This document shows, in pieces, positions 10,632 to 15,556 of a DNA stretch of 64,000 nucleotides; positions within the stretch are counted from its first letter, which is position 1, and every line of letters begins with the position of its first letter. Made by a program: the position numbers and the translations under genes. The notes beneath the pieces are model-generated. The model saw nothing but the letters and a program-made list of their open reading frames with translations, was not told the origin of the DNA and searched no databases. The DNA is from Devosia sp. Root413D1. GTDB taxonomy: Bacteria; Pseudomonadota; Alphaproteobacteria; Rhizobiales; Devosiaceae. The stretch lies in assembly GCF_001425235.1 (NCBI RefSeq), contig NZ_LMEA01000008.1:62001-126000 (forward strand), written 5' to 3'.

Positions 10632-11713
10632 TGTTCGGCCTCCCTCTCGAGCCGGTCGACCCAGAGCGCACAGCCTGAGGCCTTTACCGGCTCGCCCGCG
10701 CCCAGCCGCTCCAGCATGCGGTCATACTCGCCGCCCGACGCCAGCACTTCGCCGTCCGAGCCGGTCATCTCGAACACGATGCCGGTATAGTAATCGAGGC
10801 GCGGCGAGAAGCTCGCATCGAAGATCACGTCGGCATTGGGCGATAGCGCCGCCAGCGCCGCCGCGTGGTTGCGCACCTGGTACAGCGGCTCGTCGAAATC
10901 GAACCCGGCCTGCTTGCACATCTCCGAGATGCGCTCGAATGCCGTCTCGGTGCTCTCGGCAACCGACAGGTAGTTCTGCAGCAACGCCACCGTCTCGGGT
11001 GGGATCGGCGCCGATTCCAGCGCCTGCTTTTCGAGGTAGCGGTCGGCGATCTCTTCCGGCGTGCGGCTGCCGATCAGGCTCAGCCCACCCGACAGCATCG
11101 CATCGGTAACGATCTCGATCACCGTGTCACGGCTATCGGGGGCAGGGGCCTCCGCCCGTTCTTCCGGGTTGCTGAGCCGTTCCATCAGGCGCTCCAGCGC
11201 CTCGGGGTGGCCGAAGCGGTGACGGATGCGGCTGCGCCACGCCACCGGGATCTCAGCCGCTTCGAGGAACGCCTCGAACAGCCCGACCCCGCCCAGCCGC
11301 ACGTTCGGCGCGGTGATGTCGTAGATGGCCAGCGCCCAGCGCGCGAAGGTCAGCACCTGGTCGAGCGCATTGTCGGCATCGGCCTGGCCCAGGAGTTCGA
11401 GCCCGGCCTGCTCGAATTCGACCGGGGTGGACTGGTATTGGCGGAAGATCGGGCCGAGATAGGTGTAGGCCGAGGGGGCGCCGGTCAGCCCCTCCTCGAG
11501 ATATTGCTGCGCGATCGGCAGCGTGAAATCCGGCCTCAGGCAGTACTCGACGCCGTTATTGGTCGTGGTGAGCAGCAGGTTCCGCCCGAATTCCTCACCC
11601 GCGAGATCGAAATAGGGGCCGGCAGGCAGCAGCAGCGCCGGGGTGGCGCGCGTCACCGTGCGCGACTCGACCAGCCGTACCAGCGCCGCATATCGCTCAG
11701 AGGCTGTCTTCAC
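10628..11713 (-). CDS. hisZ: ATP phosphoribosyltransferase regulatory subunit
   Basis: HisRS-like protein without aminoacylation activity that activates short HisG and mediates histidine feedback. The chosen GTG start gives 361 residues beginning [12 protein letters not shown] and overlaps the hisS stop by 4 bases (GTGA); the longer frame upstream lies in hisS antisense of the wrong frame and is dropped. Class II synthetase-like motif 2 region is seen around [11 protein letters not shown], and [11 protein letters not shown] matches the histidine-pocket segment. Fits between hisS and hisG. Confidence 0.9.
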
Positions 11714-13155
11714 TTGTTGGCTTCCAGGTAGGCGGCCACTGCCGGCAGTTCGGCGATGGCCGCAACGATGGCGTCGAGGTCGCCGTCGCATTCGAACTGG
11801 CCCGGCCGCGCTGCCTTGTATTCGGCGTTGTCGGCAATCGCCTTGGCCGCCTGTTTGCCAGCGATCAGGTCCTTGATCTGGACCTTGCCGAGCTCGCGTT
11901 CCTGCGTGCCTTCGATGATCACCGCCGGCGCGTTGCGCTTATCGGCATAAGCCACCTGCTTGCCGAAGTTCTTGGTATTGCCCATGAACATCTCGGCCCG
12001 GATTCCCGCCCGGCGCAGCCGCGAGGTGATCGCCTGGTAGCGCGCCGTCTGCTCCTTATCGAGCACCAGCACCACCACCGGCCCCAGCGGCTCCTCGGCC
12101 CCGAGATTGCCGGTCAGCCGCAGCGCATGGGCAAGCCGCGACACGCCGATCGAGAAGCCGGTTGCCGGCACCGGTTCCGAACGGAACCGGCTCACCAGAC
12201 CGTCATAGCGTCCGCCGCCGCCGACCGCCCCGAACACCACATCCTGGCCCTTCTCGTTCTGCACCTTGAAGGTCAGTTCGATCTCGAACACCGGGCCAGT
12301 GTAATACTCGAGCCCACGCACCACTGCCGGATCGATCTTGATCCTGTCCGCGCCATAGCCGGCCGCGTCGAACAGCGCCTGCATGGCGTTGAGCTCGGCA
12401 ATCCCCTCATTGTGCTCCGGCTCTTCGCCACGCACATAGTTCAGCACCACGGCGCGCTGTCCGTCGCTGAGGCCCGCACCCTTGGTGAAGTCGCCGCTCT
12501 CGTCCTTGCGGCCTTCCCCAAGCAGCAGCGCCACCCCGTCGGTGCCGAACTTGTCGAGCTTGTCGATAGCGCGCAGCACCGAGAGTTTCTGCCCCTCGTC
12601 GACGACACCCGCCGACGCCAGCACTCCGTCCAGCACCTTGCGGTTGTTGACCTTCACCACGTATTTGCCGGCCAATCCCAGCGCGTCCATGGTGTCGGCC
12701 ATCATCATGCACATCTCGGCATCGGCCTCGGGCCCCGCCGCGCCGACCGTGTCGGCGTCGAACTGCATGAACTGGCGGAACCGCCCCGGCCCCGGCTTCT
12801 CGTTGCGGAACACATAGCCGGCTCGATAGCTGCGATAGGGCTTGGCCAGCTTGTCGAAATTCTCGGCGAAGTGCCGGGCCAGCGGCGCCGTCAGATCGTA
12901 GCGGAGACTCATCCACTGCTCGTCGTCGTCCTGCAGCGAGAACACCCCGGCGTTCGGCCGGTCGGTGTCGGGCAGGAACTTGCCGAGCGTCTCGGTATAC
13001 TCGAGCAGCGGCGTTTCGACCGGATCGAAGCCATAGCGCTCGTAGACCGCGCGGATCTTCGCCGTCATTGCGTTCACCGCCGAAATATCGGCGGGCAAAC
13101 GATCTTCGAAGCCGCGCGGCAACCGCGGCGCGATGAGCTTCTTCTTGTCGGTCAT
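11710..13155 (-). CDS. hisS: Histidyl-tRNA synthetase
   Basis: Charges tRNA-His with histidine. 481 residues, somewhat long, as common in alphaproteobacteria. Class II motif 1 region [12 protein letters not shown], motif 2 [14 protein letters not shown] with the catalytic arginines, the histidine A motif [12 protein letters not shown], and motif 3 GFSIGVSRL are all visible; a C-terminal anticodon-binding domain follows (about 370-481). First gene of a hisS-hisZ-hisG-TauE series joined by 4-base overlaps. The partner tRNA-His lies at 20943-21019 and has the unusual alphaproteobacterial identity elements. Confidence 0.95.
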
Positions 13156-13314: not shown

Positions 13315-13351
13315 CCCCTTCGTTCAACGCCAACCAAAGAGGAGGCGACGC

Positions 13352-13414
13352 ATGATTCATTCGATGTTCGCTTCCGGTCCTGGCGTTAACCCAGCTGGTC
13401 TCTCTCGCGCCTAA
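13352..13414 (+). CDS. Possible 20-residue leader peptide of the small-ORF array
   Basis: A 20-codon ORF (MIHSMFASGPGVNPAGLSRA) with an excellent ribosome site, GAGGAGG, 6 bases before the ATG. It is the first ORF after the candidate promoter and, unlike the five following ORFs, has no hairpin before its start. A 6-bp hairpin with a C-rich loop begins 9 bases after its stop. It could be a regulatory leader or a real micro-protein; no homology can be claimed. The in-frame extension upstream to 13232 has no ribosome site and runs through the promoter region, so I reject it. Confidence 0.45.
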   Translation: MIHSMFASGPGVNPAGLSRA

Positions 13415-13543: not shown

Positions 13544-13577
13544 AGAGGACCGGGCCGCATTGCGCCCGGATGAGATC
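13544..13577 (+). promoter_or_regulatory. SD-hairpin-spacer module 1 (before small ORF B)
   Basis: AGAGGA (13544-13549) abuts a 6-bp stem CCGGGC/GCCCGG (13550-13555 with 13564-13569, loop CGCATTGC); then 8 bases to the ATG at 13578. In linear form SD and ATG are 28 bases apart; folding brings them to 8. An in-frame TTG (13560) sits in the loop as an alternative start. Confidence 0.6.
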
Positions 13578-13820
13578 ATGACTCTTGAACTCCAGACCCG
13601 TGCCCCGGCACGCACCAACCGCGCTCAGGCGCACACTCATGTAGGCGTCGCCGGCGCGCTGGTATCAGCAGCCGTCACGATGCTTGCCAACGCCCAGCTG
13701 GCGCGCGCGGCGAGACGTTACAAGTCTCGCGGCTCGCCACCTGTGCCCAGTCATCTCCGTCGCGATCTCGGGCTGATGCCCGAGGTGATGGAGCCGAAAA
13801 GCCACTGGGATTATCGGTGA
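13578..13820 (+). CDS. Small DUF1127-like protein (80 aa)
   Basis: 80 residues. N-terminal third polar, then a short hydrophobic stretch GVAGALVSAAVTMLANAQLA (about 23-42), then a basic arginine-rich C-terminus RAARRYKSRG followed by LRRDLGLMPEV, which resembles the DUF1127 core (L.DIGL). DUF1127 proteins are tiny, arginine-rich, often stress-induced, and some bind RNA. The ATG was chosen for its position 8 bases after the conserved hairpin; an alternative TTG at 13560 would add MRPDEI. A long perfect hairpin follows the stop directly. Confidence 0.65.
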   Translation: MTLELQTRAPARTNRAQAHTHVGVAGALVSAAVTMLANAQLARAARRYKSRGSPPVPSHLRRDLGLMPEVMEPKSHWDYR

Positions 13821-13864
13821 CAGCGGCTGCGGTCTTCTCGTGAGGCCGCAGTCCGCCACCGCTG
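13821..13864 (+). other. Two-step hairpin directly after small ORF B
   Basis: Outer stem CAGCGG (13821-13826) with CCGCTG (13859-13864) encloses inner stem CTGCGG (13827-13832) with CCGCAG (13846-13851). It starts on the base after the stop codon. No T-run follows, so it is more likely a transcript-protecting or attenuating structure than a terminator. Confidence 0.55.
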
Positions 13865-13880
13865 TCCCTCTGCTTGCATC

Positions 13881-13911
13881 AGAGGACCGGGCTTTGTCCC
13901 GGACAGATCAG
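13881..13911 (+). promoter_or_regulatory. SD-hairpin-spacer module 2 (before small ORF C)
   Basis: AGAGGA (13881-13886) abuts the 5-bp stem CCGGG/CCCGG (13887-13891 with 13898-13902, loop CTTTGT), followed by 9 bases to the ATG at 13912. An in-frame TTG (13894) lies in the loop, 7 bases after the SD, as the competing start. Confidence 0.6.
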
Positions 13912-14136
13912 ATGGTTCTCATCGTACGGGACCGCGCCACGTCGCGCATCCTCAACACGCCCGAATTCGACATCGGGCAAATCGGCCTCATCGGGCGGAT
14001 CCGCCTGTTCATCGCCCGGCGCCGTGCCGATGCGATGCTGCGCCGCGTCCTCCGGCCCTATCGCCGGGGCAGCGCCGCTCCGCTGTCGCCGCACCTGCTC
14101 AAGGATATCGGGCTGCCGCCCGACCTCCGCATGTAG
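13912..14136 (+). CDS. Small DUF1127-like protein (74 aa)
   Basis: 74 residues, very basic. Begins MVLIVRDRATSRIL, has IGLIGRIRLFIARRRADAML in the middle and ends LSPHLLKDIGLPPDLRM, whose LKDIGLPPD matches the DUF1127 signature (LxDIGLxRxD). Probably related to the preceding 80-residue protein, sharing the arginine-rich stretch and the DLGL/DIGL end. Expression probably tied to the 5' hairpin module. Members in other alphaproteobacteria respond to stress and affect RNA turnover; that role here is inference only. Confidence 0.7.
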   Translation: MVLIVRDRATSRILNTPEFDIGQIGLIGRIRLFIARRRADAMLRRVLRPYRRGSAAPLSPHLLKDIGLPPDLRM

Positions 14137-14146
14137 AGCACTTCAG

Positions 14147-14220
14147 GGGCGCCGGCCTCCCGGCGAGGGCTTTGCCTCGTCCGGTCCCGGCGAGGGCTCG
14201 CTCTCGTCCGGCCGGCGCCC
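14147..14220 (+). other. Predicted three-way-junction RNA between small ORFs C and D
   Basis: Perfect 11-bp outer arms GGGCGCCGGCC (14147-14157) and GGCCGGCGCCC (14210-14220) enclose two tandem 27-base near-copies (14158-14184 and 14185-14211), each starting TCCCGGCGAGGGCT and ending CTCGTCCGG and each able to form its own hairpin. Starts 10 bases after the stop of ORF C. Confidence 0.6.
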
Positions 14221-14239
14221 GTTAGCAGTTCAATCATTC

Positions 14240-14273
14240 AAGGAGCCGGCGCGTGACGCGTCCGGACACGCAC
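14240..14273 (+). promoter_or_regulatory. SD-hairpin-spacer module 3 (before small ORF D)
   Basis: AAGGAG (14240-14245) abuts an 8-bp stem with one bulged T: CCGGCGCG (14246-14253), loop TGA, CGCG and CCGG (14257-14265). Then exactly 8 bases to the ATG at 14274. A GTG (14253-14255) at the stem/loop edge is in frame and 7 bases from the SD. Confidence 0.6.
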
Positions 14274-14420
14274 ATGTTTTTGTTCAACCGCCCCGGCGAC
14301 CGACGTCGGAAGCCAGATCTCGGCCAGCCCCTGCCGCCTCGCGAGAGGCAGAGGGACGGCCTGCCGCTGCTCGGCAACATCACCGGCCTCGAACTCATGG
14401 CCCTGTTCATGAGCCGTTGA
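14253..14420 (+). CDS. Small protein D, family of three paralogues (48 or 55 aa)
   Basis: From GTG the product is 55 residues (MTRPDTH then MFLF...); from the ATG at 14274 it is 48. Three zones: hydrophobic start MFLF, an arginine-rich part (DRRRK), a proline/charged middle (PLPPRERQRD), and a conserved amphipathic C-terminus GLELMALFMSR. It is clearly paralogous to E (14449-14634) and more distantly to F (14666-14800). The differences from E are mostly third-base or conservative, which supports real coding. I recognise no named family. Whether GTG or ATG is used is open: GTG has ideal spacing, ATG needs the hairpin folded. Confidence 0.6.
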   Translation: MTRPDTHMFLFNRPGDRRRKPDLGQPLPPRERQRDGLPLLGNITGLELMALFMSR

Positions 14421-14434
14421 CCGCAACCCATCCT

Positions 14435-14469
14435 GAGGGAGCCGGCGCGTGACGCGTCCGGATACGCAG
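14435..14469 (+). promoter_or_regulatory. SD-hairpin-spacer module 4 (before small ORF E)
   Basis: GAGGGAG (14435-14441) abuts the same bulged 8-bp stem as in module 3 (14442-14461, loop TGA); then 8 bases to the ATG at 14470. The 5' region is almost identical to module 3; in the 28 bases between stem start and ATG only two bases differ. Confidence 0.6.
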
Positions 14470-14634
14470 ATGTTCTTGTTCAAACGCTCCAGCGACCGTC
14501 GCCGGAACGCCATTGTCGACGAACCGCTTCCGCTCCGGGAGCGGCGAAACGATGAGCTGCCGATCCCCGGCAACGTCACCGGCCTCGAACTCATGGTGCT
14601 GTTCCTGAGCCGCCAACAGCAAACCCGCTATTGA
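14449..14634 (+). CDS. Small protein E, family of three paralogues (54 or 61 aa)
   Basis: 61 residues from GTG (MTRPDTQ then MFLF...), 54 from the ATG at 14470. Same plan as D: MFLFKRSSDRRR, a charged middle PLPLRERRNDELP, then GLELMVLFLSR and a short extra tail QQQTRY. About 60 percent identical to D by eye. The stop codon TGA overlaps the GAGGGAG ribosome site of ORF F, so E and F are tightly linked on one message. No function can be named. Confidence 0.6.
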   Translation: MTRPDTQMFLFKRSSDRRRNAIVDEPLPLRERRNDELPIPGNVTGLELMVLFLSRQQQTRY

Positions 14635-14665
14635 GGGAGCCGGCGCAACGTCGCCGGACGACACG
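14633..14665 (+). promoter_or_regulatory. SD-hairpin-spacer module 5 (before small ORF F)
   Basis: GAGGGAG (14633-14639) abuts a perfect 6-bp stem CCGGCG/CGCCGG (14640-14645 with 14652-14657, loop CAACGT); then exactly 8 bases to the ATG at 14666. Here no in-frame GTG/TTG/ATG exists in the hairpin, which favours use of the ATG beyond it. Confidence 0.6.
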
Positions 14666-14800
14666 ATGTTCTTCCCACGCAAACTCGGCCTCCGCCGCTA
14701 CGCCCAGAAGCCGAAACAACACCTCAACCCGAACGATGAGCTGCGCCCAGAGCTCAAGCTGTCCAAGCTCGAGCTGATGGCCCTGCTGCTGATCAGGTAA
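14666..14800 (+). CDS. Small protein F, family of three paralogues (44 aa)
   Basis: 44 residues, too short for usual gene finders. It repeats the plan of D and E: MFFPRKLGLRRY at the start, a polar middle, and SKLELMALLLIR at the end, matching GLELMALFMSR of D. It lacks the MTRPDT extension because the codon in place of GTG is GCA. The last ORF of the array; a 9-bp hairpin follows 4 bases after the stop. Function unknown. Confidence 0.55.
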   Translation: MFFPRKLGLRRYAQKPKQHLNPNDELRPELKLSKLELMALLLIR

Positions 14801-14953: not shown

Positions 14954-15556
14954 CTATTTCGGTCGCTTCAGCGCATTCCGCTCAGCTGCCGCCTCGGCCC
15001 GGCAAAAGCACCCGTCGACGTGGTCGTTCACCAGCCCCATCGCCTGCATGAACGCATAGCTCGTCGTCGGGCCAACGAACGAGAACCCGCGCTTCCTCAG
15101 GTCCTTACTCATTGCCTTGGACGCCTCGGTCTCCGCCGGGATACTCCCCGAGACGATCGGCCCCTCAACCGGCTCGGGCTCAAAACTCCAGAAATAGGCG
15201 GCTAGTGAGCCGAACTCCTGCTGCAGCTCCAGCGCCCGCTTGGCGTTGTTGATGGTCGAGGCGATCTTGCCGCGATGCCGGATAATGCCGGCATCCTTCA
15301 GCAACCGCTCGATATCGGCCTCGTCCATCGCTGCGACCTTCTTGAGGTCGAAGCCATGGAAGGCCGCGCGGAAATTCTCCCGCTTCCGCAGAATGGTGAT
15401 CCACGCGAGGCCCGACTGGAACCCCTCGAGGCAGAGCTTCTCGAACAACCTGACGTCGTCCGTCACCGGCCGTCCCCATTCGCGGTCGTGATAGTGCTGA
15501 TAGAGCTCGTCGCTCCCCGCCCAGCTGCAGCGCATCACCTCGGTCGGCGTTGACAT
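14954..15556 (-). CDS. tag: DNA-3-methyladenine glycosylase I
   Basis: Base-excision repair glycosylase that removes 3-methyladenine from alkylated DNA. 200 residues, normal. N-terminal RCSWAGSDELYQHYHDREWG includes the cysteine and the histidine of the zinc-binding set, with HVDGCFC at the C-terminus completing it; the catalytic-domain motif GFQSGLAWITILRKRENFR and the late GPTTSYAFMQAMG are diagnostic. Stand-alone gene convergent with the small-ORF array. Confidence 0.93.
   Translation of the reverse strand: MSTPTEVMRCSWAGSDELYQHYHDREWGRPVTDDVRLFEKLCLEGFQSGLAWITILRKRENFRAAFHGFDLKKVAAMDEADIERLLKDAGIIRHRGKIASTINNAKRALELQQEFGSLAAYFWSFEPEPVEGPIVSGSIPAETEASKAMSKDLRKRGFSFVGPTTSYAFMQAMGLVNDHVDGCFCRAEAAAERNALKRPK

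Follow-up and report, generated by a model that had tools for sequence, protein, structure and literature searches.

Five consecutive small open reading frames (ORF1 to ORF5) in a window of 64,000 nucleotides (nt) from the 5.85-Mb genome of Devosia sp. Root413D1, which is related to the soil-dwelling Devosia insulae, share an unusual start arrangement, in which a Shine-Dalgarno (SD) sequence runs directly into a G/C hairpin and the hairpin ends 8 or 9 nt before an ATG. This layout is conserved among relatives, is exchanged with a plain SD at the same ATG in some of them, covaries before rplU, the gene of ribosomal protein bL21, and recurs in three unrelated gene groups: the array itself, rplU and an ABC exporter. 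Judged from sequence comparison, the hairpin most probably acts as a structured spacer for the ATG, the folded stem restoring a normal SD–ATG distance, and hairpin-spaced starts of this kind are likely an overlooked, recurrent way of starting translation.

The original prediction, drawn from the letters of the window, had described all five modules and had argued that their SD and ATG lie too far apart unless the hairpin folds; renewed reading of the sequence confirmed both points. Measured along the unfolded RNA, 25–28 nt separate the SD end from the ATG in every one of the five ORFs, and the gap from stem end to ATG is 8 nt for ORF1, ORF3, ORF4 and ORF5 and 9 nt for ORF2, near the genome's usual spacing (a peak at 6–8 nt between SD core and ATG in 218 long ORFs). 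The in-frame alternative codons reported inside four of the five hairpins are likewise present, namely TTG in ORF1 and ORF2 and GTG in ORF3 and ORF4, with none in ORF5. Folded in isolation at 37 °C, the hairpins of ORF1 to ORF5 have predicted free energies of -12.3, -7.4, -11.4, -11.4 and -9.9 kcal/mol. Under a fixed definition, the module was recognized in 35/35 unique array-family modules against 7.2 expected after shuffling of the sequence that follows the SD, a count that only bounds chance folding because these leaders had been selected for having the motif. As a side observation, SD cores in the same 218 long ORFs (464 kb, contig C8) number 39 at 22–30 nt versus 15 at 12–21 nt before the first ATG, a second rise that possibly reflects background or mis-called starts.

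Comparison of the orthologous array in seven other species of the genus separates the parts of the module that are kept from those that are not: the ATG is fixed, the stem is retained wherever a hairpin exists, and the GTG or TTG is lost. For ORF2, the TTG occurs in one of six hairpin-bearing species, that of the window, and the loops of species without it read CTTCG, CTTCCA, TTTCCG and the like between CCGGG and CCCGG. For ORF3, the GTG is again confined to the window's species among seven with a hairpin; at its position the Devosia insulae-like genome G002 has GTA, two others have CTG (one of them also with an additional ATG 6 nt ahead of the fixed one), and three have no such codon. Orthologues without a hairpin carry a plain SD at the same ATG, GAGGGA at 6 and 3 nt for ORF2 (G015 and G011) and AGAGGA at 7 nt for ORF5 (G010, G007 and G004). 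Furthermore, distant ORF1 homologues, both within the genus and elsewhere in the family, begin with the same module; some of them, by eye, adjoin hisS-like or glycosylase-like frames. A covariance model of the array module (R2), run on 19 genomes of the genus, returned 17 matches at E < 0.05, all 17 of them array modules and many from its own training set; the o2 sequences of G000 and G002 were excluded from its alignment on account of mis-registered arms. The same defect affected the MAFFT alignments A1, A3 and A6, on which covariation was therefore not based, A1 yielding just four invariant outer pairs.

The layout reappears before rplU as SD, hairpin, 6–10 nt and ATG (loci L166–L169 and L186–L295), where the start is not in doubt, the conserved bL21 N-terminus beginning at the ATG. 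Within the family, 80 of 91 unique leaders, drawn from 112/131 genomes with an rplU match, carry the module (7.4 expected by shuffling), and a plain SD is found in nine of the remaining 11. Thirteen of 114 loci were unparsed at first; 11 were read later (L208 at a doubtful start), seven of these with the module, and L199 and L238 were not located. In L200, L204 and L205 a hairpin stands, by eye, 12–13 nt from the ATG and thus outside the definition. Outside the family, none of 44 leaders read has the module and 33 have a plain SD (46 of 114 matches taken, 44 of the 46 readable). In the 47 distinct rplU leaders of group g5, 93.0% of cells are paired (shuffled 80.5, standard deviation 1.2, 0/500; maximum on sliding 47.1), 43 cells are changed on both sides (shuffled 14.7, standard deviation 4.1, 0/500; maximum on sliding 10) and the covariation score is 0.430 versus 0.188. 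Of the seven stem pairs, four show changes on both sides; RNAalifold finds the same seven pairs, and loop length varies between 3 and 9 nt. No Rfam match was obtained in rplU leaders from 14 sources. Two variants were noted in passing: in group g13 (L169, L186, L194) the hairpin, by eye, precedes a plain SD, so that ordinary spacing is used there, and L190, with SD-like cores on both sides of its hairpin, looks like an evolutionary intermediate.

The third group is an MsbA-like ABC exporter, with the module in 24 of 26 unique leaders across nine families of the order (6.7 expected), the window's own genome (L361) included, in the form SD, hairpin, 8–10 nt, ATG (L352–L381). This set comprised 30 of 34 matches, from which three loci without an ATG near the match were removed and one duplicate leader was merged, and GGGG was accepted as an extra SD core; the protein, an MsbA-like half transporter, fell under the cut-off of every NCBIfam family among the best 25 of 89. 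Both rplU and the exporter were reached through the covariance model R1, which represents the ORF3-type module and matched in 94 of 136 family genomes at E up to 1, many of these matches surely by chance. Among 18 R1 loci inspected, seven lie before array-type small genes, five before the ABC exporter, one before rplU, and five are chance-like. Extended to the order (297 genomes, E up to 0.01), R1 gave 10 weak matches outside the family, with about three expected by rough E-values; one of them, L345, resembles the exporter with a perfect module when judged by eye, and most others are chance-like.

Altogether, a structured spacer is favoured because the stem is conserved and the in-hairpin GTG or TTG is not, because hairpin-free ORF2 and ORF5 orthologues place a plain SD at the same ATG, and because the stem–ATG distance approximates the genome's SD spacing in a layout that returns at rplU and the exporter. 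The preference that the original prediction had voiced on account of ORF5 is thus borne out by codon loss, hairpin-free orthologues and rplU covariation, and extends more widely than that prediction knew. Mechanistically, SD helix and ATG would both be bound by the 30S subunit, the ATG in its P site, with the stem staying unmelted between them, as reported for genes 25 and 38 of phage T4. For the action of the stem, geometry would matter more than letters, since four of seven rplU pairs are altered in both arms and loops are variable; the stem would have to form in the cell, where it would presumably raise initiation.

Several observations weigh against this reading. Folding of the leaders supports it for the isolated hairpins, which are predicted to be stable, but less so in context: with 35-nt flanks on each side at 37 °C, the outer-stem probabilities of ORF1 to ORF5 are 0.98, 0.00, 0.64, 0.46 and 0.88, and three of the SDs are mostly paired (63% for ORF1, 99% for ORF2, 71% for ORF5). 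In the flanked ORF2 leader the SD region is predicted to pair with an upstream CCCTCTG rather than its own stem forming; as this heptamer is identical or similar, by eye, in five of six species with the ORF2 hairpin, ORF2 may be subject to a brake of its own. Covariation in relatives, proposed as a check alongside folding, is likewise divided, in that stems are conserved and rplU covaries, but the array-type hairpins show no significant signal (2 double-change cells versus 1.0 shuffled; score reached by 50/500 shuffles) because their outer CCGG...CCGG is invariant, and the array case is therefore built on stems that are kept while loops change, and on likeness to rplU. Even in rplU, two of five measures are not clearly set apart from the shuffled values: pairs changing on both sides number 4 versus 3.4 on shuffling (245/500) and further pair types 14 versus 11.3 (25/500). 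Three of the seven pairs, the outer two and the innermost, are almost constant. In addition, an SD-like core, mostly formed by the stem end, lies 3–11 nt before the ATG in 5/80 rplU and 5/26 exporter leaders.

The genomic background adds two further points on the same side. A census of 464 kb of the own genome (the window plus 400 kb), made with a crude ORF picker restricted to ATG starts and to ORFs of at least 90 amino acids (aa), which excludes ORF1, ORF3, ORF4 and ORF5, showed no genome-wide excess: three of 335 genes, ORF2 among them, pass the strict definition, against 3.3 after shuffling (about 1% per gene), and the layout is therefore no general habit of this genome. Nor is DUF1127 the carrier of the motif, as 0/10 paralogue loci of the own genome, with up to three starts each, have the module (one locus, L040, appears to be a spurious frame); the layout is therefore not tied to this protein family. 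The description of the array proteins as DUF1127-like holds loosely for ORF2, which scores 14.2 bits against PF06568 (13.7 in a second search), below the Pfam cut-off of 23.3, and fails for the other four, which gave no DUF1127 match in Pfam (ORF3 and ORF4 being searched from their GTG).

Among the alternatives, the hairpin might serve an RNA-binding protein (one of the array products, bL21 or some other factor) as its operator for repressing or activating initiation, with spacing as an incidental outcome. Such an explanation would suit the small, arginine-rich array proteins, the Rhodobacter DUF1127 protein that the accessible part of the literature describes as RNA-binding, and the constancy of the outer stem, since CCGG is invariant in the array and the outermost CC/GG is nearly constant in g5 rplU (45/47). 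The inner rplU pairs and the loops vary to the extent given above, which makes a letter-specific protein site less likely; moreover, arms are AT-rich in g16 rplU (L211 and L213; TCTAGT...ACTAGA in L211, unlike CCGGG...CCCGG), and the same layout stands before three unrelated gene groups. An operator is therefore unlikely, retained as an alternative on account of the near-constant outer CC/GG and of proteins that could bind by shape.

A role in mRNA stability or transcript pausing, or an origin as a spread DNA repeat with no part in initiation, is brought to mind by the ORF3 and ORF4 hairpins, which are duplicates, and by GC-rich inverted stretches also found between ORF2 and ORF3. These readings are very improbable when set against a position fixed on both sides (the SD end, and 6–10 nt before the ATG), arms that covary in register with SD and ATG, and rplU leaders outside the family, where a plain SD is common and the module absent. 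The pattern RGAGSCGG..CCGGA..ATG matched the own genome six times, three times within the array, and its reversed control three times; a looser exact pattern gave match numbers mostly near the reversed control.

The competing model of the original prediction, a hairpin that hides a start codon (GTG or TTG, normally spaced from the SD) until a switch releases it, drew on the four window modules with such a codon, and G002 adds an ORF4 that keeps its GTG, with an in-frame ATG beside it. It found no support in the wider sample and is now hardly tenable: an in-frame ATG, GTG or TTG 4–13 nt from the SD occurs in just 10/40 unique small-gene and 18/79 rplU modules, the codon is lost while the stem is kept, and both the hairpin-free orthologues and the bL21 N-terminus point to the ATG. 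The proposed temperature or stress switch, to which a Rhodobacter DUF1127 protein reported, in the accessible part of the literature, as induced on heat shock might lend colour, is the least credible and was rejected on prediction, as the helix is not predicted to melt in the physiological range, isolated stems retaining -2.8 to -6.2 kcal/mol at 65 °C and the flanked stem probability between 28 and 65 °C being nearly flat for ORF1 (0.99 to 0.96) and ORF5 (0.85 to 0.91) and rising for ORF4 (0.24 to 0.89).

Returning to the structured spacer, the array is additionally preceded by an upstream open reading frame (uORF) that likely serves, by analogy with a known system discussed below, as a translation-sensing attenuator leader. 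A uORF of 18–22 codons with an SD-like core, starting 209–250 nt before ORF1 (-226 in the window), was found in 21/21 genomes examined, a raw count without chance control that covers 16/16 loci and five more genomes (L002–L008, L056–L061, L063, L065, L116, L120, L123, L126 and L133 besides the window; L062 was left out, and L112 coincides with L058). Within subgroups its peptide follows a conserved pattern, such as SGPGxxxAGLxRA or AFARGxxxxWGMxRA. Such a leader would sense failing translation, which would match the pre-folded start sites proposed for the genes behind it.

Tentatively, and with more doubt than confidence, the hairpin-spaced starts of Hyphomicrobiales could represent a selected class of ribosome binding sites that discriminates between ribosomes or translation states, in which the uORF-guarded array, whose small proteins would be needed under impaired initiation, the ribosomal protein bL21 and the exporter share a pre-folded SD–stem–ATG clamp that would load the 30S subunit without mRNA unwinding.

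The uORF and the five plus-strand ORFs, whose coordinates are given in Table 1, fill the space between two minus-strand genes, which we take to be hisS-like (11710–13155) and DNA-3-methyladenine glycosylase-like (14954–15556). The five ORFs behave as coding, because differences to G002 concentrate at the third codon position (positions 1/2/3: ORF1 0/1/11, ORF2 2/2/8, ORF3 4/1/10, ORF4 8/5/11, ORF5 2/1/7), and the ORF1 protein is 100% identical in Devosia insulae DS-56. The gap between ORF2 and ORF3 (14137–14240) contains a repeated stretch, GC-rich and inverted (GGCGAGGGCTTTGCCTCGTCCGG, also in a variant form), of species-dependent length. Searched with Rfam 15, the window gave a tRNA as its single match at gathering thresholds, and the array region one match at E up to 1, far under its threshold.

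Table 1. Features of the small-ORF array and its upstream leader (window coordinates)
Feature	Position	Strand	Remarks
uORF SD	13336..13345	+	AAAGAGGAGG; read from sequence
uORF	13352..13414	+	20 codons and a stop codon, MIHSMFASGPGVNPAGLSRA; likely attenuator leader, conserved in position, length and some of its peptide
ORF1 SD AGAGGA	13544..13549	+	Read from sequence
ORF1 spacer hairpin (probable)	13550..13569	+	8 nt to ATG 13578; in 8/8 close-set species, window's included
ORF1	13578..13820	+	80 aa, arginine-rich; Pfam: nothing above cut-off
CCCTCTG, possible anti-SD	13866..13872	+	Predicted to pair with CAGAGG (13880–13885) before ORF2
ORF2 SD AGAGGA	13881..13886	+	Read from sequence
ORF2 spacer hairpin (probable)	13887..13902	+	9 nt to ATG 13912; two orthologues without hairpin, plain SD instead
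ORF2	13912..14136	+	74 aa; C-terminus DUF1127-like, under Pfam cut-off
ORF3 SD AAGGAG	14240..14245	+	Read from sequence
ORF3 spacer hairpin (probable)	14246..14265	+	8 nt to ATG 14274
ORF3	14274..14420	+	48 aa; C-terminal end NITGLELMALFMSR
ORF4 SD GAGGGAG	14435..14441	+	Read from sequence
ORF4 spacer hairpin (probable)	14442..14461	+	8 nt to ATG 14470; identical to ORF3 hairpin
ORF4	14470..14634	+	54 aa; ORF3 paralogue
ORF5 SD GAGGGAG	14633..14639	+	Overlaps ORF4 stop codon
ORF5 spacer hairpin (probable)	14640..14657	+	8 nt to ATG 14666; three orthologues without hairpin, plain SD instead
ORF5	14666..14800	+	44 aa; C-terminal end KLELMALLLIR

A start predictor expecting the SD within about 4–12 nt would tend to shift such starts to GTG or TTG or to miss the genes altogether. 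The exchange of hairpin and plain SD at one and the same ATG, hinted at by the fifth module of the original prediction, amounts to a natural experiment, and the arrangement offers a clean system for asking how a helix that separates SD from P site fits into the 30S subunit and whether particular initiation conditions are thereby selected.

The claim that no such arrangement had been described holds in part: among the open-access papers listed, with subscription papers mostly outside the scope, none was found to describe hairpin-spaced starts for arrays, rplU, exporters or a cellular family, but the principle itself is known from T4 genes 25 and 38. Related cases exist in Escherichia coli, where thrS has a split ribosome binding site whose long hairpin is reportedly accommodated without unfolding (PMC3936740) and rpsA likewise has a split site (PMC1805508). 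As in the array, hairpins interrupt the ribosome-bound region of both; unlike in the array, they split the loading region or a motif resembling the ribosome binding site itself, and a lone SD–hairpin–AUG is not described in the accessible parts of these sources.

For the uORF, the nearest parallel is duf1127_1 of Sinorhizobium meliloti, a small DUF1127 gene with a 29-aa uORF and a transcription start site that lies 30 nt before this uORF and 279 nt before the gene; tetracycline and chloramphenicol induce the gene, and reporter results suggest that attenuation is relieved (PMC12218461). According to the part of that account available, its uORF starts near -249, compared with -209 to -250 for the array uORFs of 18–22 aa, and the window holds the corresponding element, a uORF of 20 codons with its own SD close to that position. 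In contrast to the array, an SD–hairpin–ATG is not described for duf1127_1 in that part of the account.

The closest relatives of the module are the split ribosome binding sites of T4 genes 38 and 25 described by Nivinskas and Malys, as far as the accessible part of the source reports them, where SD and AUG lie 22 and 27 nt apart and an intervening RNA structure cuts the distance to 5 and 11; the gene 25 structure is shared by close T-even phages and missing from those further away, and tested stem mutants indicate that such a stem can raise initiation (PMC3014915). Where stem mutants were tested in T4, the present case is known from sequence and prediction. The geometry is alike, with 25–28 nt unfolded, 8–9 nt folded and structure in between, and the features that define the T4 sites are found again here: an unfolded distance over about 20 nt, a helix backed by comparison through rplU covariation, and a folded distance in the functional range. 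Unlike the two phage genes whose SD and AUG are described, in the papers found, as directly flanking a hairpin, those of Devosia and its relatives are bacterial chromosomal genes, five of them consecutive, in a layout that recurs before three unrelated gene groups.

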